Shown here in pieces: positions 6,288 through 21,403 of a DNA stretch of 21,452 bases. A program made the position numbers and the translations under genes. The notes beneath the pieces are model-generated. The model made no database searches. It was not told where the DNA came from and was given only the letters and a program-made list of their open reading frames with translations. The stretch covers positions 1-21,452 of IMG/VR virus record IMGVR_UViG_3300031951_011933; one strand, given 5' to 3'. The first letter of the stretch is position 1, and every line of letters begins with the position of its first letter. The stretch is from a virus.

Positions 6288-7555
6288 TATTCGGCCTCGT
6301 CATAGTAAGCATATTGGCCCCAAGGTGGTTCAATAGTTGTGGTACCATGCAAGATCCAAACAGTATCTGCATAGTTCTCATCGCCCCACGAACCAAACGG
6401 GTAGCCGTCTGTAAACACAACCAGGCGCTTGGGTTCAATTTCATTGTCCTTCAAGTATTTGAAGATACAATCAAAGTCTGTACCACCACCACCTGTTACT
6501 TCGTAGTCGCAAATGTCTTCCAAGTTGTCCGAGTCATATTGTGCAGGATTGTAGCAGTCAGTATCAAAGGTCACAACATGGATACGATACGCAGGGAATG
6601 AATCCATGATGCCTTGAATCTCGCCCAAGAAGTCTTTCAACATCTTTTCGCTGATTGAGCCTGAAGCATCCAGTGCAATAGCAATATCAATCATGGGATC
6701 CAGTTTCATACCGGGCATGACCGCATCCATGTGCCAACCTTTACGGCTGGCTCGCATCCAAGTGTAATCACTCTTGATGGTTGACTCCAATTGCATACGG
6801 AGCAGTTCGCGCCAGTTCATCTTGGGCTCGGTCATGTCTTGTATAAGACGCTTGACACCTGCGGGCAAGTTGCCTGCACCATCCACAGTAGCGGCCGCCG
6901 CTAGCATGGCTTCTTTGATCTCATCACGGATTTGCTGACGCTCTTCAGGAGTGAGCTTGGGACGGCCTTTGCCTTCTTGGTCACCATCACCATCATTGGG
7001 ATCGCCTTCGCCATCCATGTGCTCGTCAATCATCTTGTCCAACAAGTCGCTGATGTTGATCTTTTCTGCTTTTTCGTACAACTGGTCATAGATCTCTTCC
7101 GAGCTCATGCCTTCATATTTGCGGTCGAACAAGCAAGGCACAGATGTAATCATCTCACCTACCTTGTGTTTGACCAAGTCGCCATTCACAGCAAAGTCAT
7201 TGGCAATGTTAAACAACTGTGGGTCACGATTGCCGCGACGTCCAAAGTGATCATAAACACAATGCAGGACCTCGTGTCCAAACAAGAATTCAATCTCCTT
7301 GGGCTTGAGCATTTTAATGAAGCGGGTATTGTAGTAGAAGTTTCTGCCGTCTGTTGCGGCAGTAGCACACCACTCATCTGCGTTTACCAGTTTCAAACGA
7401 GTAGCAAGATTGCCAAAGAAACTAGCCTTTAACAACAAACCCACACGGGCGGTGATCAACATTTCACGCACAACTTTGTCAAGTTTGGTGTCCATGGGTC
7501 CAATAAGATCTTTAAACTTATCAGACTCTTTTTTGTTTACTGTACTGGTAGTCAC
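6287..7555 (-). CDS. Metallopeptidase-like/VWA protein (DUF2201-type), MoxR partner
   Basis: A 422-residue two-part protein. The N-terminal half has a zincin-like HExxH (H94-E95-x-x-H98, in FGHEVLHCVYDH) and the NIANDFAVN segment (about 116-124), as in the metallopeptidase-like domain attached to VWA proteins. An acidic linker (about 170-200) leads to a VWA domain with an intact MIDAS DxSxS (D296, S298, S300) plus GGGGTDF and FTDGYPFG for metal binding. It starts with GTG, with an AAGGA Shine-Dalgarno. The MoxR ATPase gene lies two genes upstream with its own promoter; MoxR-VWA pairs act as chaperone-like machines that insert cofactors or remodel complexes. First gene of the operon running to thyX. 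Confidence 0.85.
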   Translation of the reverse strand: MTTSTVNKKESDKFKDLIGPMDTKLDKVVREMLITARVGLLLKASFFGNLATRLKLVNADEWCATAATDGRNFYYNTRFIKMLKPKEIEFLFGHEVLHCVYDHFGRRGNRDPQLFNIANDFAVNGDLVKHKVGEMITSVPCLFDRKYEGMSSEEIYDQLYEKAEKINISDLLDKMIDEHMDGEGDPNDGDGDQEGKGRPKLTPEERQQIRDEIKEAMLAAAATVDGAGNLPAGVKRLIQDMTEPKMNWRELLRMQLESTIKSDYTWMRASRKGWHMDAVMPGMKLDPMIDIAIALDASGSISEKMLKDFLGEIQGIMDSFPAYRIHVVTFDTDCYNPAQYDSDNLEDICDYEVTGGGGTDFDCIFKYLKDNEIEPKRLVVFTDGYPFGSWGDENYADTVWILHGTTTIEPPWGQYAYYDEAE

Positions 7556-7583
7556 GGGCTATTCCTTTGTTGCTTATGTGTAT

Positions 7584-7612
7584 ATTATAGCAGATCACGA
7601 TTTGTTGGTCAA
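7584..7612 (-). promoter_or_regulatory. Sigma70-type promoter for the VWA-to-thyX operon
   Basis: Minus strand TTGACC (7612-7607), 17-bp spacer, TGC-TATAAT (7589-7584). The start is expected near 7577, giving a leader of about 22 nt with AAGGA before the GTG. The TGA stop of the preceding gene (7611-7609) is inside the -35 box. Confidence 0.88.
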
Positions 7613-7914
7613 GTTATAATTGGTAGTACTTCAGTAGTACAATTTAGGTACCGCAGTTGAAACCAACTTTGTGAAGATTCTGTGTAAAAATCAACATGTA
7701 CCTGCTGTTCGCAATACTTGTGGCCTCCATCCATTTTTTTGATTTGGATCCACTCTTGATGATTGCGATAAGTGAATCCAAGTTCACGTCTCAGTCGAGT
7801 GCGCACTGCCATACCCATGCCAAAATCTTTGAGAATCTTTGAATAAATGGCACTCCAGTCACCTGGGTGGTGAAATATAATTAGATTCTTTTTTACTGTG
7901 ATACGGGATGACAT
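7609..7914 (-). CDS. Phage-type unknown, 101 aa
   Basis: I choose ATG 7914 (MSSRITVKKNLIIFHHPGDW); an in-frame TTG at 7926 would add four residues. The product has 101 residues, mixed alpha/beta, with HPGDWSAIYSKILKDFGMG, YRNHQEWIQIKK and YCEQQVHVDFYTE segments. I do not recognise a family. It overlaps the preceding gene by 22 bp, and its TGA lies in the -35 box of the VWA promoter. Sitting between moxR and the VWA gene, the pair 7893-8222 and 7609-7914 might be accessory to the MoxR/VWA machine, but that rests on position alone. Both proteins mention alternating basic/aromatic residues, perhaps because they are related to each other. Confidence 0.68.
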   Translation of the reverse strand: MSSRITVKKNLIIFHHPGDWSAIYSKILKDFGMGMAVRTRLRRELGFTYRNHQEWIQIKKMDGGHKYCEQQVHVDFYTESSQSWFQLRYLNCTTEVLPIIT

Positions 7915-8222
7915 AGCAAAAACCAACTGAGTGTTTTGTCGTTGTCAACATAGATGCGGTAATCGCCATACTTAACTGCATAGGCCCATACAAGATTGAT
8001 ATCGTCTGCCTGGTAGGCTTCTTGATTGTTACGACGATTTACTGACATGGAGTCTCGAGTTTCAACATCTTGACTCCATCCAAAGTTCTGATTGAACCAG
8101 CGCCTGCAACGATCAAAGTCCAACACGCCAGTACCAAAACTTTCAACCTTTGAGAACTCGATTATATAATCAAACCGGCGCTTGTTGAATCGCCCGTCCA
8201 TTTTTGTAACTTTGTATTTCAT
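7893..8222 (-). CDS. Phage-type unknown, 109 aa
   Basis: A 109-residue protein with basic and aromatic residues: MDGRFNKRRFDYIIEFSKVE, a CRRWFNQNFGWSQD segment and LVWAYAVKYGDYRIYV. Predicted alpha/beta, with the last segment beta-rich; no known domain recognised. It starts right after the terminator that closes moxR and has no visible Shine-Dalgarno or strong promoter of its own. A TTAAATA stretch in the terminator loop could be a poor late-type box. Expression may come from read-through. It overlaps the next gene by 22 bp. Function unknown. Confidence 0.66.
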   Translation of the reverse strand: MKYKVTKMDGRFNKRRFDYIIEFSKVESFGTGVLDFDRCRRWFNQNFGWSQDVETRDSMSVNRRNNQEAYQADDINLVWAYAVKYGDYRIYVDNDKTLSWFLLCHPVSQ

Positions 8223-8228
8223 AGTAGA

Positions 8229-8280
8229 GAAAGAAAAGGGGCCATGTGTACACAGCCCGTGTATTTAACCACACGGCCCC
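8229..8280 (-). terminator. Rho-independent terminator after moxR
   Basis: On the minus strand GGGGCCGTGTG (8280-8270) pairs with CACATGGCCCC (8248-8238), with one G-U, around a 21-nt loop. A pyrimidine run TTTTCTTTCT follows. It ends the moxR transcript directly after its stop. The large loop makes the energy uncertain. Confidence 0.75.
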
Positions 8281-8286
8281 TTAAAC

Positions 8287-9369
8287 TTAGGCGGATGCCT
8301 GCAAGATATACTTGCCAAAGCGTTGATGGAACTCGTCAAAGTTCTTGAGCTTGGTTGGGAGGAAGGGCAAGTCGTATGTGGTCAACGCAATACGAGCACC
8401 CATCACAGTCAACTCAGTCTCAAAGTTCTTCATCATGTAGCCCAGGAAGTTGTCGGCCATCTCATGGAACTTCTTGTCTTCCACTTTGGTCTCAACAGCC
8501 GCCTTGAGCTCGTAGCACATGGAGATCACCAGGCTATACATGGCTGACACTTCTTTGACCTGCAAGTCCTTGACCTTGCCGCTCAAGATGTCTGCAGGGT
8601 TGGGCATCTTGCCTGCAACCTTTTTATGTGCCATAAACTTCACAGCAAGCCCTTCGCCTACAGTACCTGCAATCAGGTTCATTGTGGTGTCGTCATCGCT
8701 ATTGTCGTCCAACAACTGGCTCACAAAGGTCCATGAACGCGGAGTAGCAAAGGCACGGCTGGCGCTCTTGGCATCAAAGTCGTACAAGTCCTGCTTGGCA
8801 AAACTCAAGTAACCAACCACGTCCTTGTGGATGCGGTTGTTAACTGCCCACTCTTGCCACGAAGCAAAGTCCACCTTCATCTCTTGGTGGATGAAACGGT
8901 TTGCCAGGGGAGTCGGCATGCGATAGGTAACACCTTTGTCGCTTTCACGGTTACCTGCGGCAACCATTACAACATTGTCAGGCAGTTTATACTTGCCAAT
9001 GCGTCGATTCAAAATTAGTTGATAAGCGGCACTCTGAACAGAAGGTGCGGCACTATTAAGTTCGTCCAAGAACAACACCACAATGGGATATTGTGCGGCA
9101 GTTTCTTCATCAGGCAGTTCCACAGGAGGAGCCCAATCCATCTTGCCAATGTCCTTGTTGTAGAACGGGATACCACGAATGTCTGTGGGCTCCATCTGAC
9201 CCAGGCGCAGGTCAATCATCAAGCCGCCAAGGTCGTTGGCAATGCCTTCAACCAGCTCACTCTTGCCAATGCCGGGAGGACCCCACAGGAACAAAGGACG
9301 CTTGACTTGGAATGCTTTGAGCAAAGATTTTTTTGCTTGAAGCGCGGTAACGGTGCGGGAATCTGACAT
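8287..9369 (-). CDS. MoxR-family AAA+ ATPase
   Basis: A 360-residue MoxR-type AAA+ ATPase. Walker A is GPPGIGKS (30-37), Walker B is VVLFLDELN (97-105), sensor 1 is AAGN (137-140) and PTPLANRF supplies the arginine finger (R158). A lid region follows. MoxR ATPases couple ATP hydrolysis to a VWA partner, and one with a zincin-like domain lies just downstream on the same strand. The gene has its own extended -10 promoter and a Rho-independent terminator, so it is a single-gene unit. An AAAGG Shine-Dalgarno lies eight bases before the ATG. In a phage this machine probably remodels a host or phage complex; its target is unknown. Confidence 0.92.
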   Translation of the reverse strand: MSDSRTVTALQAKKSLLKAFQVKRPLFLWGPPGIGKSELVEGIANDLGGLMIDLRLGQMEPTDIRGIPFYNKDIGKMDWAPPVELPDEETAAQYPIVVLFLDELNSAAPSVQSAAYQLILNRRIGKYKLPDNVVMVAAGNRESDKGVTYRMPTPLANRFIHQEMKVDFASWQEWAVNNRIHKDVVGYLSFAKQDLYDFDAKSASRAFATPRSWTFVSQLLDDNSDDDTTMNLIAGTVGEGLAVKFMAHKKVAGKMPNPADILSGKVKDLQVKEVSAMYSLVISMCYELKAAVETKVEDKKFHEMADNFLGYMMKNFETELTVMGARIALTTYDLPFLPTKLKNFDEFHQRFGKYILQASA

Positions 9370-9399
9370 GGGCTGTGCCTTTCAAGTTAATAAGTCTAT

Positions 9400-9428
9400 A
9401 GTATAGCAGAAGTTGATTTAGCGGTCAA
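9400..9428 (-). promoter_or_regulatory. Sigma70-type promoter for moxR
   Basis: Minus strand TTGACC (9428-9423), 17-bp spacer, TGC-TATACT (9405-9400). The leader of about 24 nt ends in AAAGG before the ATG. The -35 box holds the TGA stop (9427-9425) of the 57-aa gene upstream. Confidence 0.86.
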
Positions 9429-9598
9429 CTGTTAATTGTAGCAAAAGGGCTAAGAACTTCTTCAGGTTCTTCAACTGCCTCGGGCTTTTCGTAAACCCAA
9501 CTAACCGGGATCTCCAGTTCTCGAGCCACGTCCATGGGAGACCGGCCCTTTTCTAGCAGGTCCTGAATGTCTACGTCGAGGTCGCTCATACGGCTCAT
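9425..9598 (-). CDS. 57-aa micro-protein, phage type
   Basis: A 57-residue ORF in the 9425-9598 gap. It begins MSRMSDLDVDIQDLLEKG, then RSPMDVARELEIPVSWVYE, an acidic EAVEEPEEV linker and the end ATINS. The middle has the length and spacing of a small helix-turn-helix ('xxDVARELEIPVxWVY'), so DNA binding is possible. The ATG overlaps the upstream TGA (ATGA), and the stop is inside the moxR -35 box. I recall similar proteins in T4-like phages. Second ATG at 9589 is an alternative start. Confidence 0.74.
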   Translation of the reverse strand: MSRMSDLDVDIQDLLEKGRSPMDVARELEIPVSWVYEKPEAVEEPEEVLSPFATINS

Positions 9599-9879
9599 GC
9601 TGTCTCCTTGCTCATGTATTCAAACAAAATCCACTTGGCCTGATTCAGCATCTGGCGCTGGGTTTCCATGATGTTGGCCAGTCGGTCGCTGTCATAAGGA
9701 CCGTAACTGACCATTTCTTGGCAATCGCTGAGGATGCCGGCGGCAACCATTGCGGCTCCGGAAAATTTGAAAGTGATGCTGTCTTCAACGCTGTCGCGGA
9801 GTTCAGCTTCAGTGCAACCATACATGCGAATTTCGCGTTGTCGTTGCTGATCTTTTGCGAATGCTTTGCTCAAGTCCAT
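9595..9879 (-). CDS. Small phage-type protein, 94 aa, unknown
   Basis: A 94-residue helical protein: MDLSKAFAKDQQRQREIRMY, then DSVEDSITFKFSGAAMVAAG, ILSDCQEMV and a C-terminal QMLNQAKWILFEYMS helix. The 'GAAMVAAGILSDCQEM' stretch resembles a conserved small protein of T4-like cyanophages, from memory. AAAGGAG precedes the ATG at good spacing, and a strong promoter lies 30 bp upstream. Its stop overlaps the start of the 57-aa gene. Function unknown. Confidence 0.74.
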   Translation of the reverse strand: MDLSKAFAKDQQRQREIRMYGCTEAELRDSVEDSITFKFSGAAMVAAGILSDCQEMVSYGPYDSDRLANIMETQRQMLNQAKWILFEYMSKETA

Positions 9880-9909
9880 TTGTGGCTCCTTTTGTGTGTC
9901 TATGTGTAT

Positions 9910-9938
9910 ATTATAGCAAATTGGGATTTATTGGTCAA
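9910..9938 (-). promoter_or_regulatory. Sigma70-type promoter for the 9879-to-9425 pair
   Basis: Minus strand TTGACC (9938-9933), 17-bp spacer, TGC-TATAAT (9915-9910). A leader of about 24 nt ends in AAAGGAG. The TGA of the preceding membrane-protein gene (9937-9935) is part of the -35 box. Confidence 0.88.
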
Positions 9939-10168
9939 CCAAACGCTTTGTATAACCCTACAAAGCCTATGGCTAATGAAATCACATTTACTGTGAACTG
10001 TGGCAGGTTTCGTACACGGATGGTCCATGAAAGGAATGCCACGGTGCCAATAAATGCCGCGATGATGTTGTAGGGATAAGCCGCAGGACCCACGGCATTG
10101 AGGCCGTGCATGGCAATGATAGCCACTGCTCCGGTCCACTGTAGTATTTCGTTGATTTCTAATTTCAT
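9935..10168 (-). CDS. Small multi-pass membrane protein, 77 aa, predicted leaderless
   Basis: The real start is ATG 10168 (MKLEINEILQWTGAVAIIAM), since any upstream start would lie before the promoter's own start point. The 77-residue product has hydrophobic segments WTGAVAIIAMHGLNAVG, YNIIAAFIGTVAFLSW and a C-terminal VNVISLAIGFVGLYKAF, so about three membrane spans. The ATG is six bases past TATAAT, so the mRNA is predicted leaderless, with no Shine-Dalgarno possible. Similar small membrane proteins occur in environmental T4-like phages by memory. Function unknown; transport or lysis-related roles are guesses. Confidence 0.76.
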   Translation of the reverse strand: MKLEINEILQWTGAVAIIAMHGLNAVGPAAYPYNIIAAFIGTVAFLSWTIRVRNLPQFTVNVISLAIGFVGLYKAFG

Positions 10169-10174
10169 GTTATT

Positions 10175-10203
10175 ATTATAGCCGATCTTGAATATTTGGT
10201 CAA
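10175..10203 (-). promoter_or_regulatory. Sigma70-type promoter giving a predicted leaderless mRNA
   Basis: Minus strand TTGACC (10203-10198), 17-bp spacer, GGC-TATAAT (10180-10175). Seven bases past the -10 is the A of the ATG at 10168. This promoter lies in the divergent gap opposite the plus-strand operon. Confidence 0.85.
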
Positions 10204-10205
10204 CC

Positions 10206-10231
10206 AAAAAACGCCCCGCAAAACTGCAAGG
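10206..10231 (-). terminator. Weak terminator-like hairpin in the divergent gap
   Basis: On the minus strand CCTTGCA (10231-10225) can pair with TGCGGGG (10220-10214), with two G-U pairs and a four-base loop, followed by CGTTTTTT. It could stop antisense transcription leaving the plus-strand genes. On the plus strand the stem is poorer. Confidence 0.35.
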
Positions 10232-10236
10232 GTTTT

Positions 10237-10274
10237 GTAGTACTTGAGTATTACAGCAGTAAATACCTTATAAA
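10237..10274 (+). promoter_or_regulatory. Candidate promoter region for the plus-strand operon
   Basis: TTGAGT (10244-10249), a long 19-bp spacer and TATAAA (10269-10274) precede the ATG at 10283, with no Shine-Dalgarno. It is much weaker than the minus-strand promoters. TTATAAAATA also resembles a T4 late box with one extra base. An imperfect repeat GTAGTACT-TG-AGTATTAC (10237-10254) overlaps the -35 and may bind a regulator. Confidence 0.35.
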
Positions 10275-10282
10275 ATACCGTC

Positions 10283-12448
10283 ATGAATTTTGCAATACCC
10301 GCTGAGTCCCTAGTAATTGGTCTTTCCACCGATCGACCAGCAATTTATTCAGGAAAAAAATTAAGTCGTTTGATTGACAGTGTAGCCGGAAAGTTGCATA
10401 GTTTACACTTGCCTCCAGATGCTGGCATTGGCATAATTGGTGTCAACTCTGTACCTTATATAATCGCCATGTTAGGCACACACAAAACCAATCATGTTTG
10501 TGTTCCGCTGAATTACAAACTGCCTGAAGACAAGATACATTTCTGTCTCAATGAAAGCAAGGTTGGGCTTGTATTTTGCGATGCCAAGTTCAAACATCTA
10601 GTTCCTGCGGGCATCGCCACAATTGAGTTTGATTCAGATTTTGATCAATTTGTAGACAACGATTATCTTCCTCCTGAAGATTTGGATCTGAACAGAGTGA
10701 CTTTGGCCTTGTACACTTCGGGATCTACTGGTGCCCCAAAAAAGGTCTTGTTCAGTTTCCAAGACAGGTTTTCTGAAACTGCCATGAAAAAAATGTTGCT
10801 CTGGAATTCTGTGACACATCGAACCATGAGTGCTAATCCGTTGTTTCATATTGCAGGTATCAATTGGCTTGTGATTAATCTCGTACGCGGCAACGTGTTA
10901 TTTGTTCTGTCACACTTTGATGCCAGCGAGTTTTTAAAACACATACAAAAGAATCGCATTACATCATTGACACTTGTGCCTCCTATGATGTCCATGATGC
11001 TAAACAAAACAGACCTGTTGAAAACAACGGATCTGTCATCGGTTAAGGAAATTGTGTTCCAAGCCGGGTTGGCAGATGTATCTTTGCTGGAACAAGTGAA
11101 ACAGGTTTTTGTCAATGCAGAACATATTGCAAATTCCTATGGGTCAACTGAAACAGGATTTGGCGTGTTTGGAAAGCACCCAGATGGTAGAAAAACTCCC
11201 CCCGGAAGTGTGGGTTATCCACTACCGTTGGTAAAAACAAAATTGATAGATGATGTGTTGTTTGTCAATACCAAAGACCTGACTAGCAGGCTACAGGAAG
11301 TTGGTGAAGAATACTTTGATACTAGAGATCGTTTTAGAGTTGACGAGCATGGATTTTATTATTATGCTGGCCGTGTAGACGACATGCTCAAGTGCGGAGG
11401 AGAAAAAGTCTATCCTATTGAAATTGAGCAAGTGTTAACCCAACATCCGGCTGTGGTCGAATCTGTGATAATTGGCCTAGACGACGAAATCAAAGGACAA
11501 AAGCCTTATGCATTTGTCAAGCTATCGACCCCAGTGGAAGAAACACACTTGATAGATTATGCTTCATCCATGTTGGCCACGTATCAAATTCCAAAACGTA
11601 TTTGGTCCGTTGACACCTTTCCCATAAACGAAATTGGTAAGATAGACAAAAAAACTCTAGTGCAGCTTGCACAGCAATATATATCTAATAACATGAACTT
11701 CAACCCACCAGATAATCTTAAAGGCCAAACTGCGGTTATCACAGGTGCCATGGGCAAAGTAGGTTACGCTACTGCTCAACGTTTGGCTGATTGCGGAGCT
11801 AGAATCATTGGACTAGTACGACGAGATGTGGAAGCCGCACAACAAAGATTAAACCAACTGCCCAACAATGCACTCAATCATTTGGCCTTGCTAGCCGATG
11901 TAACCGATACTGCTAGTTTAAAGTTGGCTGCCTCTCAAGTTGATCGGTGTGATATTTTGGTCAACTGTGCTGGATATACCAAAATGATCAGGAACTCTGA
12001 ATTACACGAATTAACTGATGAAATGTTTCATAAGATAGTCTCGGTTAATTTACACGGTACCTATGCTACAATAAGAGAATTTGGCAATTTACTAAAAGCA
12101 TCCGGGGACGGATTGATAGTTAATATTACCAGTGCAGCCGGGCTACGGGCCAGCACCAGTAACGTGGCCTATGGAGCCAGTAAAGCTGGTGTTGATTTAT
12201 TGACAAAATCGTTGGCAGTTAGTTTGGCTCCTACAGTCAGAGTTATATCTATTGCTCCAGGATATTTACAAGACGGAGTATCTGGAACCACAGTCACACC
12301 GGACGGACGAGCACGGATGATCAGCATCACTCCAATGAACAGAGTAGGAACTGCCAAAGAAGTGGCTGACGCAATACTTGCCTATGCAACTGTGATTAAA
12401 TTTACAACTGGTGCTATTGTAGTTTTAGATGGTGGTAGAACACTATGA
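10283..12448 (+). CDS. Acyl-CoA ligase (ANL family) fused to short-chain dehydrogenase/reductase
   Basis: A 721-residue fusion. Residues 1-470 are an adenylate-forming CoA ligase: A3 loop LYTSGSTGAPKK (143-154), A5 YGSTE (286-290), A7 FDTRD (345-349, TGD read as TRD), A8 GRVDDMLKCGGEKVYP and catalytic Lys K453 in NEIGKIDKK. Residues 473-721 are a classical SDR: TGAMGKVG (487-494), NCAG (561-564), S617 and YxxxK (Y630, K634). The ligase N-terminus looks shorter than usual. The ligase would convert a carboxylate to a CoA thioester; the SDR interconverts a hydroxyl and keto group with NAD(P)H. M471 could be a separate SDR start but lacks a Shine-Dalgarno. The stop overlaps the next gene (ATGA). 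Substrate unknown. Confidence 0.88.
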   Translation: MNFAIPAESLVIGLSTDRPAIYSGKKLSRLIDSVAGKLHSLHLPPDAGIGIIGVNSVPYIIAMLGTHKTNHVCVPLNYKLPEDKIHFCLNESKVGLVFCDAKFKHLVPAGIATIEFDSDFDQFVDNDYLPPEDLDLNRVTLALYTSGSTGAPKKVLFSFQDRFSETAMKKMLLWNSVTHRTMSANPLFHIAGINWLVINLVRGNVLFVLSHFDASEFLKHIQKNRITSLTLVPPMMSMMLNKTDLLKTTDLSSVKEIVFQAGLADVSLLEQVKQVFVNAEHIANSYGSTETGFGVFGKHPDGRKTPPGSVGYPLPLVKTKLIDDVLFVNTKDLTSRLQEVGEEYFDTRDRFRVDEHGFYYYAGRVDDMLKCGGEKVYPIEIEQVLTQHPAVVESVIIGLDDEIKGQKPYAFVKLSTPVEETHLIDYASSMLATYQIPKRIWSVDTFPINEIGKIDKKTLVQLAQQYISNNMNFNPPDNLKGQTAVITGAMGKVGYATAQRLADCGARIIGLVRRDVEAAQQRLNQLPNNALNHLALLADVTDTASLKLAASQVDRCDILVNCAGYTKMIRNSELHELTDEMFHKIVSVNLHGTYATIREFGNLLKASGDGLIVNITSAAGLRASTSNVAYGASKAGVDLLTKSLAVSLAPTVRVISIAPGYLQDGVSGTTVTPDGRARMISITPMNRVGTAKEVADAILAYATVIKFTTGAIVVLDGGRTL

Positions 12449-13317
12449 ATTCAACAATAATTACCTGCGCTGTAACAGGCTCAGTTACTGATCCCAATGC
12501 AACACCGTATTTGCCAATTACCCCAGAGGAGATTGCCACATCATCATTGGAGGCGGCAGAAGCCGGTGCGGCAGTGGTTCATATTCATGTGAGAAATCCA
12601 GAAACCAAACGTGGTAGTATGGATATAGATTTGTACGCTAGAACAGTCGAGCTGATCAAACAAAGCAACCGAGACTTACTGATTAATTTAACCACAGGTC
12701 CTGGTGCTCATTTCTCCATCGGCAAGCCGTTTATGCACAATGGCAACAAAGATAGTATGCTGTATCCAGCAAAGGTACGTGTACGACACATACTGGAAAT
12801 CAAGCCTGATTTTTGTAGTATAGATTTCAATACCATGAATCAACATGATGACAGAGTTCGTATCAATCATAAAACTGTAGTAAAAGAAATGATTGAGTTA
12901 ATACAATCTGTGGGAACAAAGCCTGAACTAGAGTTATTTGACAGCGGCGACCTGCGACTGGCCAAAGAGTTTTGTCAAGAAGGTATCATCAAACCTGGTG
13001 CCATATGGCAGTTTGCCATGGGCATAAAGTATGGCTGGGACCATACGGTGGAAACAATAGACTACGCACGTAGGCAGCTACCAGAAGGGGCCGTGTGGAG
13101 TGCCTTTGGTATAAGCCGAGAACAAATGCCCATGCTGGCCGCAACTTGGTTGTATGGCGGGCATGTTCGCGTGGGCATGGAAGACAACATCTATTTGTCC
13201 AAAGGACAGTTGGCCAAGACCAATGCGGAGCTTGTGACAAAAGGTCGGCGCATCATTGAGGACCTGGGCGGCACAATAGCGACCACTGCCGAAGCAAGAC
13301 AGATTTATAAAATGTAA
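12445..13317 (+). CDS. Beta-keto acid cleavage enzyme (BKACE/DUF849 family)
   Basis: A 290-residue BKACE. Such enzymes use Zn2+ to transfer the acyl part of a beta-keto acid to CoA from acetyl-CoA, releasing acetoacetate; known members act on 3-keto-5-aminohexanoate, dehydrocarnitine and others. Visible are the Zn ligands HIHVRNP (HxH at about 45-51), ELELFDSGDL and GGHVRVGMEDN near the C-terminus, the family's hallmark. N-terminal IITCAVTGS is also typical, and length fits. It shares ATGA with the ligase-SDR fusion, so the three activities are co-expressed. It is closed by a strong terminator. The family is rare in phages as far as I know. The exact substrate is not readable from sequence. 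Confidence 0.9.
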   Translation: MNSTIITCAVTGSVTDPNATPYLPITPEEIATSSLEAAEAGAAVVHIHVRNPETKRGSMDIDLYARTVELIKQSNRDLLINLTTGPGAHFSIGKPFMHNGNKDSMLYPAKVRVRHILEIKPDFCSIDFNTMNQHDDRVRINHKTVVKEMIELIQSVGTKPELELFDSGDLRLAKEFCQEGIIKPGAIWQFAMGIKYGWDHTVETIDYARRQLPEGAVWSAFGISREQMPMLAATWLYGGHVRVGMEDNIYLSKGQLAKTNAELVTKGRRIIEDLGGTIATTAEARQIYKM

Positions 13318-13324
13318 GTCAAAA

Positions 13325-13350
13325 AAAATAGGCCCCGAAGGGCCTATTTT
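13325..13350. terminator. Bidirectional Rho-independent terminator between convergent genes
   Basis: An 11-bp perfect stem AAAATAGGCCC (13325-13335) and GGGCCTATTTT (13340-13350) around a CGAA tetraloop, with A-runs on one side and T-runs on the other. It can end both the plus-strand BKACE transcript and the minus-strand metallophosphoesterase transcript, whose TAA overlaps the stem edge. Confidence 0.92.
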
Positions 13351-13955
13351 TACATAGTAGGTCCGTTGCCGGATCTAAACCCAACTACGCCACCTTCTGC
13401 TTCAATGCGTTGGATAGCATCTTCAAACAAGATAGGTGCAAAGTCAGTTTGCTCCACGCATACACAATGGTACCGGGGATCAATCTCAGTAGAGTACAAC
13501 ACAGTTCCAGTCTTGGCATCAACACCACGTGCCTTCTTCACACGGCTGGCATGCAAGTGTCCGTGAATGTTTACACCAAAGCGACCCAATGAAGCCTCAT
13601 GCACAGGGATATGACTCAAGATCATTCCGTTCATCACATGGTATGCACGTAACTCACGAAAATATTCTCTGTACTCGTCATCACGAAAGATGTCGTGGTT
13701 GCCGCGGATCAATACCTTGTCCCCGTTCAACCTAGCCAATGTCTTCAAAGCCTTGCGGTTGATAACAACGTCACCCAAGTGGTACACCTTGTCACTAGGA
13801 CGCACACGATCGTTCCAATTCTTGATCATAGCCTCGTCCATCTCATCAGGATCGTCCCAGGGACGCAATTTCACTGTGTCGTCATCAGGGTGCGTGAAGC
13901 GACAGACACCGGCGTGTCCAAAGTGCGTGTCACTGACTAAAAATACTGCTGGCAT
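13350..13955 (-). CDS. Calcineurin-like metallophosphoesterase
   Basis: A 201-residue metallophosphoesterase with the whole set of metal-binding motifs: DTHFGH (D9, H11, H14), GDVV (61-64), GNHD (85-88), a later SHIPVHE and HGHLH. Such enzymes hydrolyse phosphomonoesters, phosphodiesters or nucleotides with Mn2+ or Fe/Zn. This compact form is common in phages and in small bacterial phosphoesterases; its substrate is unknown. AAAGGAG precedes the ATG, and a strong promoter lies 26 bp upstream. The stop is inside the bidirectional terminator. Single-gene unit. Confidence 0.9.
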   Translation of the reverse strand: MPAVFLVSDTHFGHAGVCRFTHPDDDTVKLRPWDDPDEMDEAMIKNWNDRVRPSDKVYHLGDVVINRKALKTLARLNGDKVLIRGNHDIFRDDEYREYFRELRAYHVMNGMILSHIPVHEASLGRFGVNIHGHLHASRVKKARGVDAKTGTVLYSTEIDPRYHCVCVEQTDFAPILFEDAIQRIEAEGGVVGFRSGNGPTM

Positions 13956-13980
13956 CTTGTGCTCCTTTCTTTAATTGTTA

Positions 13981-14009
13981 ATTATAGCACATTGGTAATT
14001 ATTGGTCAA
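13981..14009 (-). promoter_or_regulatory. Sigma70-type promoter for the metallophosphoesterase
   Basis: Minus strand TTGACC (14009-14004), 17-bp spacer, TGC-TATAAT (13986-13981). The leader ends with AAAGGAG. The -35 contains the TGA stop (14008-14006) of the hldD-like gene. Confidence 0.88.
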
Positions 14010-14770
14010 CCGTTTAGTACCTGATTTGTTCGAGTCATGTCGGCACAAGTGTACATTTGATAGCTATTTTTTAAGTGTTCGGGCATGGGGATTTCGTCAA
14101 TGGGCACATTAAATTGTTCAGCCACTGCTCGAAAACTCTGAGTTCGCCCTGTTCCTACATTGTATATTCCACTTGTGGGTTTTGTGAGAAATCTCAAGTG
14201 CATGTCCACAACATCTTGTACTGGCACAAAGTCTCTGTGATAGCGTTCGCTTCCTTCAAAAATCTTGATCCTGCCAGTTTCCTTTGCTTGTTTTGCAAAT
14301 TGATGAAAAGGACTAGCTTGGCCACCTTTGTGAGCTTCACCGGTGCCATACACATTGAAATATCTAAAACCTTGCACCACGTTACCACCTTGGTGTTGTG
14401 TGTGATAGCGTTCAAACAAGTATTTGCTCCAGGCATACGGTGTGCGTGGGTCTGGTGGGGCATCTTCGGTAAACACTTGCCCCATACCATATATGCTTGC
14501 TGAGCTGGAATACTGCATGTTAACACCAAAACGTTTGCAAGCGTCAAACAACTGTCTGCTGAAATCAAAGTTTTGCGTGAGAACTTTGTTTATGTCACGT
14601 TCAACTGTTGAACTGATGCCACCAATATGCACAACCCAGTCTTGTTCCATAACGCTGGGCATGTTGCCATCGTCCCAGTCAAAGGTGTCGACTTCGTGTC
14701 CGTCGGCTTCTAAAGATCTCAGCAAGTGGCTACCAATAAAGCCTTTATGACCGGTTAGTAATATTTTCAT
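14006..14770 (-). CDS. hldD: HldD-like ADP-heptose 6-epimerase
   Basis: The start is ATG 14770 (MKILLTGHKGFIGSHLL); upstream in-frame Met codons fall within the HAD gene. The 254-residue protein matches HldD across its length: TGHKGFIG, SSSASIYG, catalytic YAWSK (Y112, K116), then GFRYFNVYG, EAHKGG, IFEGSERYHRDFV and IYNVGTGRTQSF. HldD converts ADP-D-glycero- to ADP-L-glycero-D-manno-heptose, the precursor of LPS inner core. It is about 55 residues shorter than the E. coli enzyme, missing mainly C-terminal residues. It is last in the heptose operon, and its start overlaps the HAD gene by 26 bp. Close relatives could act on other ADP or NDP sugars. Confidence 0.85.
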   Translation of the reverse strand: MKILLTGHKGFIGSHLLRSLEADGHEVDTFDWDDGNMPSVMEQDWVVHIGGISSTVERDINKVLTQNFDFSRQLFDACKRFGVNMQYSSSASIYGMGQVFTEDAPPDPRTPYAWSKYLFERYHTQHQGGNVVQGFRYFNVYGTGEAHKGGQASPFHQFAKQAKETGRIKIFEGSERYHRDFVPVQDVVDMHLRFLTKPTSGIYNVGTGRTQSFRAVAEQFNVPIDEIPMPEHLKNSYQMYTCADMTRTNQVLNG

Positions 14771-15059
14771 TGTGATATGTCTCGATGTTCGTTGCTTTGT
14801 CATCAACCCAGATGTCGTATACAGGCTTGCCCAATTTTAATGTTGTGTACTTTACCTGCCAATTGGCAAATTGTTGTTGTGTGAGTGTAGTCCAGTCAAT
14901 GCCCGAATTACCGCCTCTGGCTGTCCAGTAATGTATCTCGTGACCCTGATCAAACAGGCTGTTGAAATGTGCAATCCTGTCCACAAACGGAACAGCACTT
15001 TGGTAATCACCATTGGTGTTATTGCATATGGTACCATCAATATCAATCATGTATTTCAT
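14745..15059 (-). CDS. Small HAD-superfamily phosphatase
   Basis: A 104-residue HAD protein with motif I DIDGTICN (D6, D8), motif II YWTARGG and motif IV DIWVDDKATN, lacking any large cap. Its length matches the small capsule/LPS-associated HAD phosphatases rather than full GmhB (about 190 aa). In this operon it may remove the 7-phosphate of a heptose 1,7-bisphosphate, replacing GmhB, or act on a related sugar phosphate; this is inference from position. It shares ATGA with the cupin and overlaps hldD by 26 bp, so it is translationally linked to both. No GmhB-type zinc ligands are seen. Confidence 0.82.
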   Translation of the reverse strand: MKYMIDIDGTICNNTNGDYQSAVPFVDRIAHFNSLFDQGHEIHYWTARGGNSGIDWTTLTQQQFANWQVKYTTLKLGKPVYDIWVDDKATNIETYHNENITNRS

Positions 15060-15415
15060 GCTTGGCTGTCTCCGGGTAACACTCGATAGTTGTCTTCTAC
15101 AGAGTCTGGAGTGCTTACTTCAATGATAGTACCTGCTTCTAGGCAAATGACCTGATGCGGTTGCAGTGGACGATTACGCCAGGTTGTGCCAGGTTTGAGA
15201 ACTGCATCGTGTTGGCTTGCATCCTGTGTTTCAATGAACACCACTTTGAACAGTCCATCTAGCACATACCAGCTCTCATCTTTTTCAGCATGGAAGTGCA
15301 TACTGAATCTTGCATCCTTGTTAAATTTAAGTAGCTTGCCACAGTACTTGTCGTTGGTTGCCCAGATTAATTCTGAACCCCACCCCTTGTCTATAAATCC
15401 GTTTAATCTTGTCAT
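15056..15415 (-). CDS. Cupin, mannose-6-phosphate isomerase C-terminal type
   Basis: The start is ATG 15415 (MTRLNGFIDKGWGSELIW), which gives an ATGA overlap with the kinase; a longer frame upstream is a shadow. The 119-residue protein is one cupin barrel, with motif 1 MHFHAEKDESWYVLDG (HxH, E, G) and motif 2 around RPLQPHQVICLEAG. The 'KGWGSELIWA' start is typical of the cupins attached to mannose-6-phosphate isomerase/GMP. In a sugar operon it may isomerise or epimerise a phosphosugar; metal binding is likely. Exact role unclear; it is not part of canonical ADP-heptose synthesis. Confidence 0.82.
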   Translation of the reverse strand: MTRLNGFIDKGWGSELIWATNDKYCGKLLKFNKDARFSMHFHAEKDESWYVLDGLFKVVFIETQDASQHDAVLKPGTTWRNRPLQPHQVICLEAGTIIEVSTPDSVEDNYRVLPGDSQA

Positions 15416-16161
15416 TTGATTTCTTCTAGTGTAGGGGCATACACACCCACATGTTGTACGGTGATTGATGCCGCATGAGTTGCAAACTCTACCGCTGATT
15501 TGATATCGTTGGTCACCAAGTACTGATATGCCAGTGCGGCCAAGAACGTGTCGCCTGCACCAGTGACATCCACAACTTCGACTGCTGGTGCCGGACAATG
15601 AATGTCGTGGTGTACAACATTTGCCCCTTTAGAACCGCGAGTGACAATCAATCCTGAACATTCACTTTTGATTTTACTGTATTCCAGTTCATTGATTTTT
15701 ACCCATGCACCTTGCATGACCTCCAAGTCTGTTAGCTTGGTATCAATGAATACTGGACACTTTACTTCCTGCAGGATATCGTAGATAAGTTTGTAGTCTA
15801 CCACACCTTTGGCGTAGTCACTGATTACAATGGCATCGTATGCGGGAATCGCTGTGGCAAACCGTACTGGAGTTGACTGCACATCTTCATCAATGCGAGC
15901 TATCTGTTGCCGACTGCGTTGGTCAATGAGCCTGGTTTTCTTGCTAGCGTGACCGCAGAGCAGATTAACTGTGCAACCAAGTGCAACAAGATTGGCATAA
16001 ACATTGCCTGCCATGCCTTCGCGTTCTTCTTTGTAGGCAGGAACAAACACAGGCACAGGTGCTTCGGGGCTTAGTCGATCAATGGTACCATACTGATACA
16101 CATCTACACAAGTGTCACCTATTAGCAATATGTTGAATTTTTTCTGTGGTTGAGAATCCAT
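15412..16161 (-). CDS. PfkB-family sugar kinase, HldE N-terminal (RfaE1) type, compact
   Basis: A 249-residue PfkB kinase resembling the kinase half of HldE: FNILLIGDTCVDVYQYG at the N-terminus, SPEAPVPVFV, AGNVYANLVALG, VISDYAKGV and the catalytic DVTGAGDTFLAAL. HldE-N phosphorylates D-glycero-D-manno-heptose 7-phosphate at C1. It is about 70 residues shorter than the E. coli kinase domain, with the main loss around the LLCGHASKKTRLIDQRSRQQ region, where lid and substrate segments normally lie; the nucleotide-binding core is kept. In E. coli kinase and nucleotidyltransferase are fused; here they are separate genes overlapping by 47 bp, transferase first. Weak Shine-Dalgarno. Sugar specificity not proven. 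Confidence 0.87.
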   Translation of the reverse strand: MDSQPQKKFNILLIGDTCVDVYQYGTIDRLSPEAPVPVFVPAYKEEREGMAGNVYANLVALGCTVNLLCGHASKKTRLIDQRSRQQIARIDEDVQSTPVRFATAIPAYDAIVISDYAKGVVDYKLIYDILQEVKCPVFIDTKLTDLEVMQGAWVKINELEYSKIKSECSGLIVTRGSKGANVVHHDIHCPAPAVEVVDVTGAGDTFLAALAYQYLVTNDIKSAVEFATHAASITVQHVGVYAPTLEEIK

Positions 16162-16507
16162 GTATTCTTTCGAAAAATACTATGTCTGATATCACATGCT
16201 GACCCACAATAGGACGGCCACGATAGTCAGAACCTTTGACCATTATGTCACATTCTGCAATGATGTCGACAAGCTCTTGATCAGAATCAAATATTCTAAC
16301 CTCATCCACTGAGCGTAGATTACTCAAGAGTTCTTGCCGTTCCGCTTGTGTATTTACAGGACGATCAGCGCCTTTTAATTCTTTTACTCTTCGATCAGAG
16401 TCAATGGCAACTATAAGATAATCACCTAAACTTCGAGCATAATTTAACAATGCTAGATGTCCAGAGTGTACGATATCAAATGTGCCATTGACTATGATTT
16501 GTTTCAT
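16115..16507 (-). CDS. Sugar-phosphate nucleotidyltransferase, HldE C-terminal (RfaE2) type
   Basis: A 130-residue cytidylyltransferase-like protein. NGTFDIVHSGH (7-17) holds the HxGH nucleotide-binding motif and GFSTTEKI near the end is the ISTTxxI-type motif. DSDRRVKELKGADRPVNTQ and MVKGSDYRG fit HldE-C, which adds AMP to heptose 1-phosphate to form ADP-heptose. It starts by ATGA within the phosphatase gene and overlaps the kinase by 47 bp. Glycerol-3-phosphate or other cytidylyltransferases are alternatives, but the neighbouring PfkB kinase and HldD-like epimerase favour heptose. Confidence 0.88.
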   Translation of the reverse strand: MKQIIVNGTFDIVHSGHLALLNYARSLGDYLIVAIDSDRRVKELKGADRPVNTQAERQELLSNLRSVDEVRIFDSDQELVDIIAECDIMVKGSDYRGRPIVGQHVISDIVFFERIHGFSTTEKIQHIANR

Positions 16508-16974
16508 TCGAAGTCTAAGTTCATCCGGCGCCAGGCTTCGTCGTCTGGCTTTTCATTTTCATCGTATGTCCAGCCCAGTTGTTTCATCAACCGGTGCTTG
16601 ACACGCAGATTAGGAATACGAGTTCGCTCGGCGTCCTTGAATCCCATCATAACACCAACCTCTGCTACTGCACCTGAACGGCACAGGCCCGCCATGCAAT
16701 GTACAACCACGTTCATGCGCTTCTTCAATGCATGCTGTAACAGGCGCACAATCTCTGCGGCTTGCTCGTCTGAGATCTTGGCTTCGTCAGGAAAGCCGTC
16801 TTTGTCTTCGGCATCCAAGAATTCAAAACGATGAGTTTCCTTAAAGTCGTGCGCCGGCTCCGGCCACCAGCTGGGTGCAGGATCCATAATTTGGATCAAC
16901 ATCGAGTTAGGGCCAGCATTGTGATGATACCTCATGGGCACATCAGCGGCGGCTACGTTTTCAATCCAGGGCAT
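16504..16974 (-). CDS. Protein tyrosine/dual-specificity phosphatase-like protein
   Basis: A 156-residue protein with the phosphatase signature VVHCMAGLCRSG (C93, R99; HCx5R). A possible general acid Asp lies in the preceding DAEDKDGFPDE region. The family cleaves phosphotyrosine, phosphoserine or small phosphorylated molecules through a Cys-phosphate intermediate. It leads the heptose operon from a strong promoter with GGAG Shine-Dalgarno and is joined to the nucleotidyltransferase by ATGA. It may dephosphorylate host regulators or a sugar phosphate of the pathway; which one is unknown. Confidence 0.83.
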   Translation of the reverse strand: MPWIENVAAADVPMRYHHNAGPNSMLIQIMDPAPSWWPEPAHDFKETHRFEFLDAEDKDGFPDEAKISDEQAAEIVRLLQHALKKRMNVVVHCMAGLCRSGAVAEVGVMMGFKDAERTRIPNLRVKHRLMKQLGWTYDENEKPDDEAWRRMNLDFE

Positions 16975-16996
16975 TGTGTTCTCCGTTTAATATGTA

Positions 16997-17025
16997 ATTA
17001 TAGCACAAAGAGCTATTCTAATCAA
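16997..17025 (-). promoter_or_regulatory. Sigma70-type promoter for the heptose operon
   Basis: Minus strand TTGATT (17025-17020), 17-bp spacer, TGC-TATAAT (17002-16997). The leader is about 16-20 nt and ends with GGAG before the ATG at 16974. Confidence 0.85.
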
Positions 17026-17031
17026 GTAGCA

Positions 17032-17508
17032 CTAAGGTATTATTTCTTGCCAGGTATGATCGCCCATGTATCGGACCTGCATTAGGTATTGATAATCTTC
17101 TGGTACACCGGTATTCCAGTCGTTGGGTCCGGTGAGTACCAGGAGATTTTTTCCGTGTCGCTTGTGCCATACCAACCAATAGCAGTGGCCCATCACAATC
17201 TGAAAATTGTATTCTGCGGCATATACTGCGTCAGTCACATCAAGTCTACGACGAATGTCTTGTGCTTGTTTTTCCAGTACTGAGACCAGTTCCATGATAC
17301 GATCGTACTCTTGCTGGGCATACATCCTAGCATGATTGATCATCAAGTCCTTTTGCTTCTCAACAGGAACTAGATCAAATGTGGGCCCCAGAGTGCTAGT
17401 GGCGTAGGGTGTTATGTTGCGATTAAAAAAATGTACCAGGGTATTGCCAGTAGTGATGTCAAAACTGTCTCTACCCTTGGCACTATTTGATTGATCAGAA
17501 TCCGCCAT
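17032..17508 (-). CDS. DUF2452-like protein
   Basis: The start is ATG 17508 (MADSDQSNSAKGRDSF), giving a 14-bp overlap with the omega-like gene; the longer frame upstream is a shadow of that gene. The 158-residue protein matches my recollection of DUF2452: FDLVPVEKQKDLM, HARMYAQQEYDRIMELVSVL, QAQDIRRRLDVTDAVYAAEY and an end with CYWLVWHKR, GPNDWNTG and RYMGDHTW. These are long helices followed by a beta-rich end. DUF2452 has no established role. Co-transcription with the omega-like protein hints at a role in host takeover, but that is only position. Confidence 0.75.
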   Translation of the reverse strand: MADSDQSNSAKGRDSFDITTGNTLVHFFNRNITPYATSTLGPTFDLVPVEKQKDLMINHARMYAQQEYDRIMELVSVLEKQAQDIRRRLDVTDAVYAAEYNFQIVMGHCYWLVWHKRHGKNLLVLTGPNDWNTGVPEDYQYLMQVRYMGDHTWQEIIP

Positions 17509-17785
17509 GATCCTTGTGACGACGTCTTGGTTCGATGTCCAACTGCTTGTACAAATACTCTCGACCAACAAGTCCAAGCTCGATTTCTTTGAGAGCTGTG
17601 ACCACTGCACTGTGCTTGGGACCATCAATTCGTGGTCGGTCGCCACGGCCTAGTTCTCTGGCACGACGAGCACCAATTAGTACCAAGTCGTATCGATTGC
17701 CCACTGCTTCGACTGCGGCCTCATTGCTGAGTCCCAGGGTTGCTTCGTATGCCAGTGCATCTTGTCTAGTTTGTACGTTATTCAT
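17495..17785 (-). CDS. rpoZ: RNA polymerase omega subunit-like protein
   Basis: A 96-residue RpoZ-family protein. The conserved core is AVGNRYDLVLIGARRARELG, matching bacterial omega 'VxNRFDLVLLAAKRARQL', followed by the KHSAVVTALKEIELG segment equivalent to 'K.TVVALREIA'. A 20-residue N-terminal addition and a basic C-terminus (RRRHKDHGGF) are different. Omega folds around and stabilises the beta' subunit, so a phage copy could replace host omega or alter ppGpp response. The start at 17785 is preferred because AGGA is well spaced; the ATG at 17788 is too close. It overlaps both neighbours. Confidence 0.85.
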   Translation of the reverse strand: MNNVQTRQDALAYEATLGLSNEAAVEAVGNRYDLVLIGARRARELGRGDRPRIDGPKHSAVVTALKEIELGLVGREYLYKQLDIEPRRRHKDHGGF

Positions 17786-18083
17786 CATCTTCCTTTGTTG
17801 TTAAACCATTTGAATGTGTGTCGCGAATTACTTCCACGTTTTGGAACAATCGCTTTTCTTGTGCTGTGAGTTTGTCTTTGTGTGTTTTACGTGGGTTACC
17901 ACATAGGTAACAATGTGGATTACCGCAGTCCATGGCATGATGTTTGGCCAATCGATGAGGTTGTCGAATATTTGCTTGATTAAACGTGCCATGCGATTTG
18001 GCAATTTTTACTTGCCTAGCAATGGCCACATCAGTTTTGTGACGTCGTTTTGAGTTTATAAATTTGGCTAGATCGTTGCTCAT
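17778..18083 (-). CDS. Cys/His-rich small protein, possibly zinc-binding
   Basis: A 101-residue basic protein. MSNDLAKFINSKRRHKTDVA begins it, and HRLAKHHAMDCGNPHCYLCG NPRKTHKDK holds four Cys/His that could bind zinc. A small family with 'CGNPxCxLCGNPRK' is known to me in phages and environmental bacteria as a hypothetical protein. It is first in the operon with the omega-like gene, whose start it overlaps by 11 bp. The leader from its promoter has no Shine-Dalgarno. Function unknown; nucleic-acid binding is a guess from the basic charge. Confidence 0.75.
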   Translation of the reverse strand: MSNDLAKFINSKRRHKTDVAIARQVKIAKSHGTFNQANIRQPHRLAKHHAMDCGNPHCYLCGNPRKTHKDKLTAQEKRLFQNVEVIRDTHSNGLTTKEDDE

Positions 18084-18097
18084 ACAGTTATTTAAGT

Positions 18098-18129
18098 AGG
18101 ACGAAACTTATTATAACAGATTTCGTCCT
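18098..18129. repeat. Perfect 9-bp inverted repeat around the -10 box
   Basis: AGGACGAAA (18098-18106) and TTTCGTCCT (18121-18129) form a perfect inverted repeat with a 14-nt spacer. The spacer contains the -10 TATAAT (18115-18110), so the dyad is centred on the promoter core. It looks like an operator; a terminator is less likely since no U-run follows. Confidence 0.7.
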
Positions 18130-18138
18130 CTAGGTCAA
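18110..18138 (-). promoter_or_regulatory. Sigma70-type promoter for the omega-like operon
   Basis: Minus strand TTGACC (18138-18133), 17-bp spacer, TGT-TATAAT (18115-18110). The ahpD TGA stop (18137-18135) is in the -35 box. The 32-bp dyad at 18098-18129 covers the spacer and -10. Confidence 0.87.
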
Positions 18139-18644
18139 CTGTTTAGAACTTTTGCAACCGAGTTCATTACCGAAGCAATACGTCCAATATCACGAAGTTG
18201 TTCGACGGTGTAACCTTGTTCCATCTTCAGCGTCTCGTAGTGTGCCTTCACACAGAAATGGCACTTGCCCACAATCGAGGCGGCCAAACTGAATGCTTCA
18301 AAGTTGGCCTTGGTAGTCCCACCATGACTGGCAATAGCATTCATGCGTAGACCAGCTGGTAGTCCTTTTAGAGCAGGATCATCGGCCATCTCAACGTAGG
18401 GATACCATACATTGTTCTGTGCCATAATACTTGCGGCTGTCATTGCTGACTCTGCGTGTACAGGCGCATCTGCTAGAATTACTGATAGGATTTTTCCGTT
18501 ACCAGTTGCGGCCAATGCGGCCACAGCACAACCCATAGCCACATCTGCATCTAATGTACTACGCAAAAGCACAGCATCAAGATTTAACTTGGTGTCTTTT
18601 GCGTAGTCTGGCAACGCTGATTTAACTGCGTCGATGAATGCCAT
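18135..18644 (-). CDS. ahpD: Alkylhydroperoxidase AhpD
   Basis: A 169-residue AhpD-like protein, the family's usual length. The redox centre is KCHFCVKAH (C128, C131, H135, CxxC with +4 His) and a Glu upstream (E116) completes the known proton relay; the position of the relay His inside CxxC is Phe here. In mycobacteria AhpD reduces AhpC using lipoamide from dihydrolipoamide succinyltransferase. The gene follows ahpC by a TAATG overlap, so the two are co-expressed. Phage-encoded AhpD is unusual and would need host lipoylated proteins and lipoamide dehydrogenase as electron donors. Confidence 0.92.
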   Translation of the reverse strand: MAFIDAVKSALPDYAKDTKLNLDAVLLRSTLDADVAMGCAVAALAATGNGKILSVILADAPVHAESAMTAASIMAQNNVWYPYVEMADDPALKGLPAGLRMNAIASHGGTTKANFEAFSLAASIVGKCHFCVKAHYETLKMEQGYTVEQLRDIGRIASVMNSVAKVLNS

Positions 18645-19183
18645 TATAGTGTCTCTCCGCCCACAGTACGGTTACATGCACATAGTTCGCCAGTTTGCAA
18701 TGCGTCAAGAATACGCAAGGTTTCTTCTGGTGAGCGACCCACGTTCAAGTTGTTCACAGTAACGTGTTGGATTTCATTGTTGGGATCAACAATGAATGTT
18801 GCACGAAGTGCGGCACCTGCTGGAGCATAAAAAACACCCAGCTGTTCAATCAGACTCAACTCACCACGCTGTGTGTCGGCAAACTGATGATGTGTGATCT
18901 TCTTGAGATCAGCGTGTGCTGTTTGCCAGGCCACTTTGCAGAACTCATTGTCTGTTGAACCGGTGAGCAATACAGCATCACGGTCAGCAAAGTCGCTGGC
19001 CAACTTGTCGTAGGCCACAATCTCAGTTGGGCATACAAATGTAAAATCTTTTGGGTAATACACAATCACTTTCCACTTGCCCTCGAACGATTGATCTGTG
19101 ATCGTATAGAAAGCATCTTGGGGTTGTCCAGGTTTGACACCTGTGACTGCAAATGGGGCTAATTTATCGCCTACGGTTTTCAT
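18644..19183 (-). CDS. ahpC: Alkyl hydroperoxide reductase AhpC (2-Cys peroxiredoxin)
   Basis: A 179-residue 2-Cys peroxiredoxin. The peroxidatic Cys is C51 in DFTFVCPTE, and the C-terminal GELCACNRT contains C168 and C170, the extra-cysteine pattern of the Mycobacterium AhpC that pairs with AhpD. It reduces H2O2, organic peroxides and peroxynitrite. AAGGAG is well placed before the ATG, and an extended -10 promoter lies 46 bp upstream. With ahpD it makes a complete two-gene peroxidase system, presumably protecting the infected cell from oxidative stress. Confidence 0.96.
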   Translation of the reverse strand: MKTVGDKLAPFAVTGVKPGQPQDAFYTITDQSFEGKWKVIVYYPKDFTFVCPTEIVAYDKLASDFADRDAVLLTGSTDNEFCKVAWQTAHADLKKITHHQFADTQRGELSLIEQLGVFYAPAGAALRATFIVDPNNEIQHVTVNNLNVGRSPEETLRILDALQTGELCACNRTVGGETL

Positions 19184-19228
19184 ATTTTCTCCTTGGTTGA
19201 TGAAACTCAGTGTTTATACTGATTCATT

Positions 19229-19258
19229 ATTATATAGCATAGAAGATGGCTAAGTCAA
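19229..19258 (-). promoter_or_regulatory. Sigma70-type promoter for ahpC-ahpD
   Basis: Minus strand TTGACT (19258-19253), 18-bp spacer, TATAAT (19234-19229) with TGC two bases further upstream (TGCTATATAAT). The 5' leader is about 39 nt. It lies in the gap after the 19280-19771 gene; no operator-like repeat or OxyR-type pattern is evident to me. Confidence 0.75.
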
Positions 19259-19279
19259 GGCATTTTGCCATTGATTTTT

Positions 19280-21372: not shown

Positions 21373-21393
21373 GATAAATCTCCTATGGTAAAC

Positions 21394-21401
21394 TATTTAT
21401 A
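21394..21401 (-). promoter_or_regulatory. Candidate T4-type late promoter
   Basis: Minus strand TATAAATA (21401-21394) is the exact T4 late -10 box. It lies in the 31-bp gap between the tRNA end and the ATG at 21372, leaving space for AGGAG. I saw no other exact copy placed ahead of a gene, and a short AT-rich box can arise by chance. Confidence 0.5.
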
Positions 21402-21403
21402 TC

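Follow-up and report, generated by a model that had tools for sequence, protein, structure and literature searches.

We found that the window (the whole 21,452-nt stretch that was analysed, IMGVR_UViG_3300031951_011933 positions 1 to 21,452) contains what appears to be one allele of an exchangeable, phage-specific metabolic unit of T4-type jumbo phages, which comprises three enzymes: an ANL-type acid-CoA ligase, an SDR and a BKACE-family protein. The enzyme families are known; the phage module, which unites three enzymes that each form a phage-only clade, is apparently new, neither described nor reported before. Our preferred reading, to which we give a probability of roughly 0.5, is that this exchangeable cassette would run in the direction of oxidation and cleavage rather than of biosynthesis.

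The two cassette genes are, as first predicted, the only convincing plus-strand genes in the window, all other long plus-strand frames overlapping minus-strand genes. Both open reading frames and the 4-nt ATGA overlap between them were confirmed (Table 1), and the terminator predicted at the end of the module is a 12-pair inverted repeat, the strongest in the region. Within the fused gene, Pfam identified AMP-binding (2.7e-48), AMP-binding_C (3.2e-14) and adh_short_C2 (5.4e-39) domains, and the 290-aa frame matched the BKACE profile over its full length (6.7e-91, residues 4-290). The active sites, which the original prediction had described as intact, proved to be so on alignment: K453 does not vary among 12 phage ligases, S617, Y630 and K634 are conserved across the phage SDRs, and the zinc ligands H46, H48 and E246 of the BKACE are retained together with E163, R242 and D247 in the complete phage copies.

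Table 1. Positions of the cassette and its parts in the window.
Feature	Position	Strand	Basis or remark
Cassette insert	10255..13346 (boundaries +/-2 nt)		Missing as a unit in the near-identical phages L102 and L115
Fused gene, 721 aa: ANL-type acid-CoA ligase + SDR	10283..12448	+	ORF call, Pfam
Ligase domain, ~residues 1-468	10283..11686	+	A3 YTSGSTGAPKK, A5 YGSTET, A8 GRVDDMLKCGGEKVYP, catalytic K453
SDR domain, from Met471	11693..12445	+	S617, Y630, K634; Arg after beta-2, NADP(H)-type
BKACE-family protein (PF05853, DUF849), 290 aa	12445..13317	+	Pfam; Zn ligands H46, H48, E246
ATGA stop/start overlap of fusion and BKACE, 4 nt	12445..12448	+	Translational coupling inferred
Inverted-repeat terminator	13324..13351		Lies where the BKACE and phosphoesterase genes converge; missing from empty sites

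Comparison with related loci and contigs (numbered with the prefix L) shows the cassette to be, on the evidence of sequence, a precise, swappable unit that has been gained, lost and exchanged at one site. L102 is 98.5% identical to window positions 8013-10254 and, after one base, resumes at window position 13348 onward; L115 has the same empty junction, with window position 10254 abutting 13347, and in both phages the terminator is missing together with the cassette. In L006 the same site holds a different allele, the ligase, SDR and BKACE of which are 46%, 43% and 76% identical to those of the window, between flanking proteins that are 96-100% identical except for one at 73%. A hairpin at window positions 10209-10240 is a mutated and weaker form of the strong symmetrical terminator present at the empty sites (L102, L105, L106 and L115), while the cassette carries its own terminator at its far end. 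In the trees of the BKACE (support 100) and the ligase (aLRT 95) the window lies beside L005; in the SDR tree it groups with L018 and L082, and an AU test on the SDR rejected the window and L005 as sisters (p = 0.0075), a looser grouping with L075 being borderline (p = 0.054). Because the SDR tree thus conflicts with the other two, the SDR has probably been exchanged separately from the rest of the cassette. The phage SDRs fall into two substrate-loop classes, and the ligase and SDR come out of these comparisons as the most variable parts of the cassette.

Viral contigs were searched with the window BKACE and also with aligned phage BKACEs, which gave 33 BKACE loci in the wider scan, most of them with ligase and SDR genes directly upstream. 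Besides the window lineage, at least nine phage lineages carry the genes as ligase-SDR-BKACE, usually unfused; this order was seen in the window lineage, L005-L008, L018 (345 kb), L011 (207 kb), L075, L078, L082, L084, L085, L090/L091 (171 kb) and L100. The order is ligase-BKACE-SDR in L079, and reduced sets occur as ligase-BKACE in L077, SDR-BKACE only in L076 and L093-L097, and BKACE alone in L012-L016. In a sister phage the BKACE is split into two ORFs with its middle missing (L017:7927-8623), through either module decay or an assembly fault. Module contigs L018, L011, L078, L090 and L091 carry a gene for the T4-type major capsid protein Gp23 (PF07068), and in L077 the ligase follows ~10 bp after the end of a T4-type terminase gene, which places the module on true phage genomes; Gp23 genes also lie on contigs of 286-344 kb that have the flanking ATPase gene in common with the window and so represent its phage lineage. 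No BKACE match was obtained in 50,697 phage records, no PHROGs family matched BKACE, and no report of a phage BKACE was found in the open-licence literature. The trio was likewise not seen in any of the bacterial stretches inspected, namely 30 short loci, 14 16-kb regions and 3 plasmid regions. The proposal of a phage carbon/CoA module is thus borne out by a conserved trio that is absent from the bacteria and cultured phages examined.

The fusion of ligase and SDR, on which the original prediction laid weight, is real but not an essential feature. It is restricted to the window lineage among the phage loci found; in the sister phages L005-L008 and in other phages the trio recurs with ligase and SDR as separate genes, usually overlapping or adjacent. 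A sequencing error was ruled out, since the identical 721-aa frame occurs in two further assemblies: it is unbroken in the L003 and L004 contigs, and the protein is 100% identical in L002 and L003. In L005 the separate ligase and SDR genes share 4 nt, and the window retains a Met (Met471, codon 11693) where the separate SDR of relatives starts, so the fusion looks like the joining of two genes with the 4-nt overlap of the sister phages. It is a local variant only of the wider module.

All 21 phage BKACEs fall into a single clade (100/99) that lies among the bacterial BKACEs, the phage SDRs form one clade (98/99) adjoining bacterial SDRs that neighbour BKACE genes, and the phage ligases occupy one side of their tree (aLRT 98). 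When the window SDR was compared with 398 Pseudomonadota genomes, its best three matches were three BKACE-adjacent SDRs, and an SDR and a BKACE are paired in this way on replicons (plasmids) of Caballeronia and Cupriavidus too. The bacterial operon runs intradiol dioxygenase-SDR-BKACE, in most cases with a zinc ADH next, and includes further genes in Rhizobium; no related ligase was present within the stretches of these operons that were inspected, and the nearest bacterial ligases are only 30-36% identical. Since the closest bacterial SDRs adjoin BKACE in ligase-free operons, the SDR and BKACE are an inherited pair and the ligase is the phage addition; trees and gene order together show a derivation of the cassette SDR and BKACE from a bacterial SDR-BKACE pair. 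The dN/dS ratios between L090 and L091 (BKACE 0.03, SDR 0.07, ligase 0.13), which are rough because synonymous sites are near saturation, show the signature of purifying selection on the cassette.

The window ligase has the P-loop-like A3, A5 and A8 motifs and the A10 Lys of ANL acid-CoA ligases, and its SDR has the classical catalytic Ser, Tyr and Lys. The TGxxxGxG cofactor motif reads TGAMGKVG in the window, with glycines spaced TGxxGxxG, and TGMMGGIG in L005. An Arg follows beta-2 in 20/20 phage SDRs and the window also has a Lys before the last glycine pair, residues that mark NADP(H) use by a published rule (PMC4785404); this signature fits reduction as well as oxidation. The window BKACE is filed as a member of PF05853, from which retro-Claisen chemistry is inferred. 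The Tyr proposed as catalytic in retro-Claisen BKACEs (Kce, PdKce) is F165 in the window and Phe in all complete phage copies except L077, which has Tyr. The same Phe is found in 30/30 of the nearest bacterial relatives sampled and in 3c6c, so F165 does not decide the reaction. A clue to the substrate is the position of window H89: bacterial relatives beside a carnitine-dehydrogenase-like gene have Asp there, and BsfD (Arg91) and relatives from ring-cleavage operons have Arg. The phage copies have H, L, F, V, Y, K, T, A or Q there, with Arg in L077 only, and because the position is variable, neither Asp nor typically Arg, the substrate of the phage BKACE is most likely neutral and perhaps variable. 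The carnitine-like substrates once suggested are accordingly disfavoured, as Asp, the mark of a carnitine type that is itself assigned from neighbouring genes, never occurs in the phage copies.

Going by the enzyme families, the SDR would use NADP(H) to interconvert a beta-hydroxy acid and a beta-keto acid, the Zn-dependent BKACE would reversibly convert the beta-keto acid and acetyl-CoA to a shorter acyl-CoA and acetoacetate, and the ligase would use ATP to turn a free acid, most simply acetoacetate, into its CoA thioester, the acetoacetyl thioester then passing to a host thiolase to give acetyl-CoA. During infection, a neutral host or environmental beta-hydroxy acid (at a guess, a PHA monomer) would thereby be oxidised and cleaved, yielding acyl-CoA, acetyl-CoA and NADPH. 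The route first proposed is partly supported: the SDR and BKACE are an ancestral functional pair, but the NADP(H)-typical residue throughout the phage SDRs makes the oxidative direction uncertain. The clues to direction conflict, in that the NADP(H) signature is set against the catabolic surroundings of the bacterial relatives. Oxidation and cleavage are further put in question by F165 at the position of the proposed catalytic Tyr, by the strong divergence of ligase and SDR alleles, which is unusual for plain central carbon metabolism, and by the existence of phages in which the ligase is not adjacent (SDR-BKACE or BKACE alone) or the BKACE is broken (L017).

Alternatively, one could imagine the pathway running towards synthesis, with the ligase activating a variable acid, the BKACE forming a C-C bond (acyl-CoA and acetoacetate giving a beta-keto acid and acetyl-CoA) and the SDR then using NADPH to reduce that product to a beta-hydroxy acid that decorates a glycan, lipid or small molecule. 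Such a direction, which we regard as a tentative second choice, would suit the Arg and Lys of the SDR and the pattern of variation, the variable ligase and SDR, two SDR loop classes and probable SDR swap looking as though the product varied; sugar-nucleotide, desaturase, MaoC, methyltransferase and 2OG-oxygenase-like genes also lie near some copies. However, the neighbouring glycan genes are gained and lost independently of the module, the bacterial SDR-BKACE relatives sit in ring-cleavage catabolic operons, and free acetoacetate is scarce in most bacteria. A broader possibility, about which we are similarly doubtful, is that widespread jumbo phages run their own diversifying acyl-CoA/beta-keto-acid pathway, in which exchangeable ligases and SDRs would tune the acid, a conserved BKACE would carry out the carbon-carbon chemistry, and a specific beta-hydroxy acid, which would alter the infected cell or its surface, would be made or broken.

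Different chemistry at the BKACE itself is improbable. BsfD, a BKACE-family enzyme from the flavophos cluster, transfers acetyl instead of cleaving and acts on a phosphonate, Arg91 lying near the phosphonate, and Phe166, standing where others have Tyr, has been suggested to matter (PMC12871164, PDB 9zsc). Its structure is the closest solved one to the window BKACE, the phage clade lies within its bacterial subfamily, and the two proteins share the Phe and a long loop after beta-3. Nevertheless, we dropped Phe165 as proof of BsfD-like chemistry because the bacterial subfamily sampled has Phe throughout, many members having carnitine-type or ring-cleavage neighbours, and Arg91 is replaced in all phage copies but L077 (by His in the window). 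That the three enzymes have unrelated jobs and are merely co-located is very unlikely: a lone BKACE in L012-L016, the changed order in L079 and the probable separate SDR swap would agree with it, but many lineages have the trio in one and the same order, and bacteria too inherit SDR and BKACE together. The bacterial type of the enzymes might also raise the suspicion of contamination or an assembly chimera, a concern that accompanied the original prediction. We consider this ruled out for practical purposes, because L003, from a different metagenome, is collinear with window positions 6858-17421 at 99.7% and L004 with 9817-21452 at 100%, and because of the empty-site alleles, the phage-only clades and the hallmark genes on module contigs. 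A defence function was dropped as well, PADLOC having matched neither the fusion nor the BKACE.

Several neighbouring genes are of interest in their own right. An asparagine-synthase-like gene (19734-20852) gained no support as a fourth module member because it also occurs in members of the window lineage that lack the module (L102, L107); several PP-loop (SGGxDS) asparagine-synthase-like families recur near phage BKACEs in the window, L016, L076, L082, L084 and L093-L097. A heptose/sugar-nucleotide cluster at 13956-16507 (HldD-like, HAD, WbuC-like cupin, short PfkB, HldC) forms another optional insert within the variable region that also holds the cassette, and is absent from L006 and L102; its 249-aa HldE-type kinase (15412-16161) matches its profile in three separate stretches and may have lost internal parts. 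We rejected a link between the module and the heptose genes at 14006-16507, which are independent inserts, L006 having only the module and L111/L112 only the sugar genes. DctP-type solute-binding protein genes (L011:6957-7904, L082:9192-10148, L084:1905-2885), with TctC-like proteins nearby, are an odd set for a phage, their products seemingly lacking a signal peptide (L011 read by eye). Beside the module of L018 (3569-7821) lie two radical SAM genes and sulfotransferase, methyltransferase and DUF6492 genes. Downstream of the module in L078 (6981-9675), L090 and L091 are 2OG oxygenase-like, double methyltransferase and MaoC-like hydratase genes that could extend the acyl chemistry, and fatty acid desaturase-like membrane proteins are encoded near it in L082 (12680-13468) and L084 (14301-15074).

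It seems that large phages have some acid/CoA chemistry of their own, and the conservation of the three-enzyme unit suggests that they actively maintain carbon/CoA chemistry. Near-identical phages with one allele, with the other and with no cassette constitute a natural experiment, and all three enzyme families can be expressed and assayed, making the role of the unit in large phages directly testable.

Compared with the characterised BKACE family (Kce, 3c6c, carnitine-type and 3-oxoadipate-type), the phage copies share the family score, the zinc ligands and the active-site Arg, Glu and Asp but differ in forming a separate clade, in having Phe for the proposed Tyr and an ANL ligase as neighbour, and in a pocket position 89 that is neither the Asp of the carnitine-neighbour type nor, L077 excepted, the Arg of the BsfD/ring-cleavage type. 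BsfD belongs to the same subfamily, and the available part of its description notes no ligase-SDR partner (PMC12871164). The closest SDR and BKACE relatives, in the dioxygenase-SDR-BKACE-ADH operon of Caballeronia, Cupriavidus, Rhizobium and others, stand in the same SDR-then-BKACE order, whereas the phage trio has an ANL ligase instead of the ring-cleavage dioxygenase or ADH. The oxidative deoxyribonate pathway likewise uses an SDR and a BKACE to take a hydroxy acid through a keto acid to acyl-CoA and acetoacetate, but its surrounding genes differ from the phage cassette and no CoA ligase was identified in it (PMC6365646). Like phage auxiliary metabolic genes and morons, the cassette consists of host-type enzymes in a discrete optional insert, on the opposite strand and with its own terminator; it differs from them in combining three enzymes, each with a phage-only clade.
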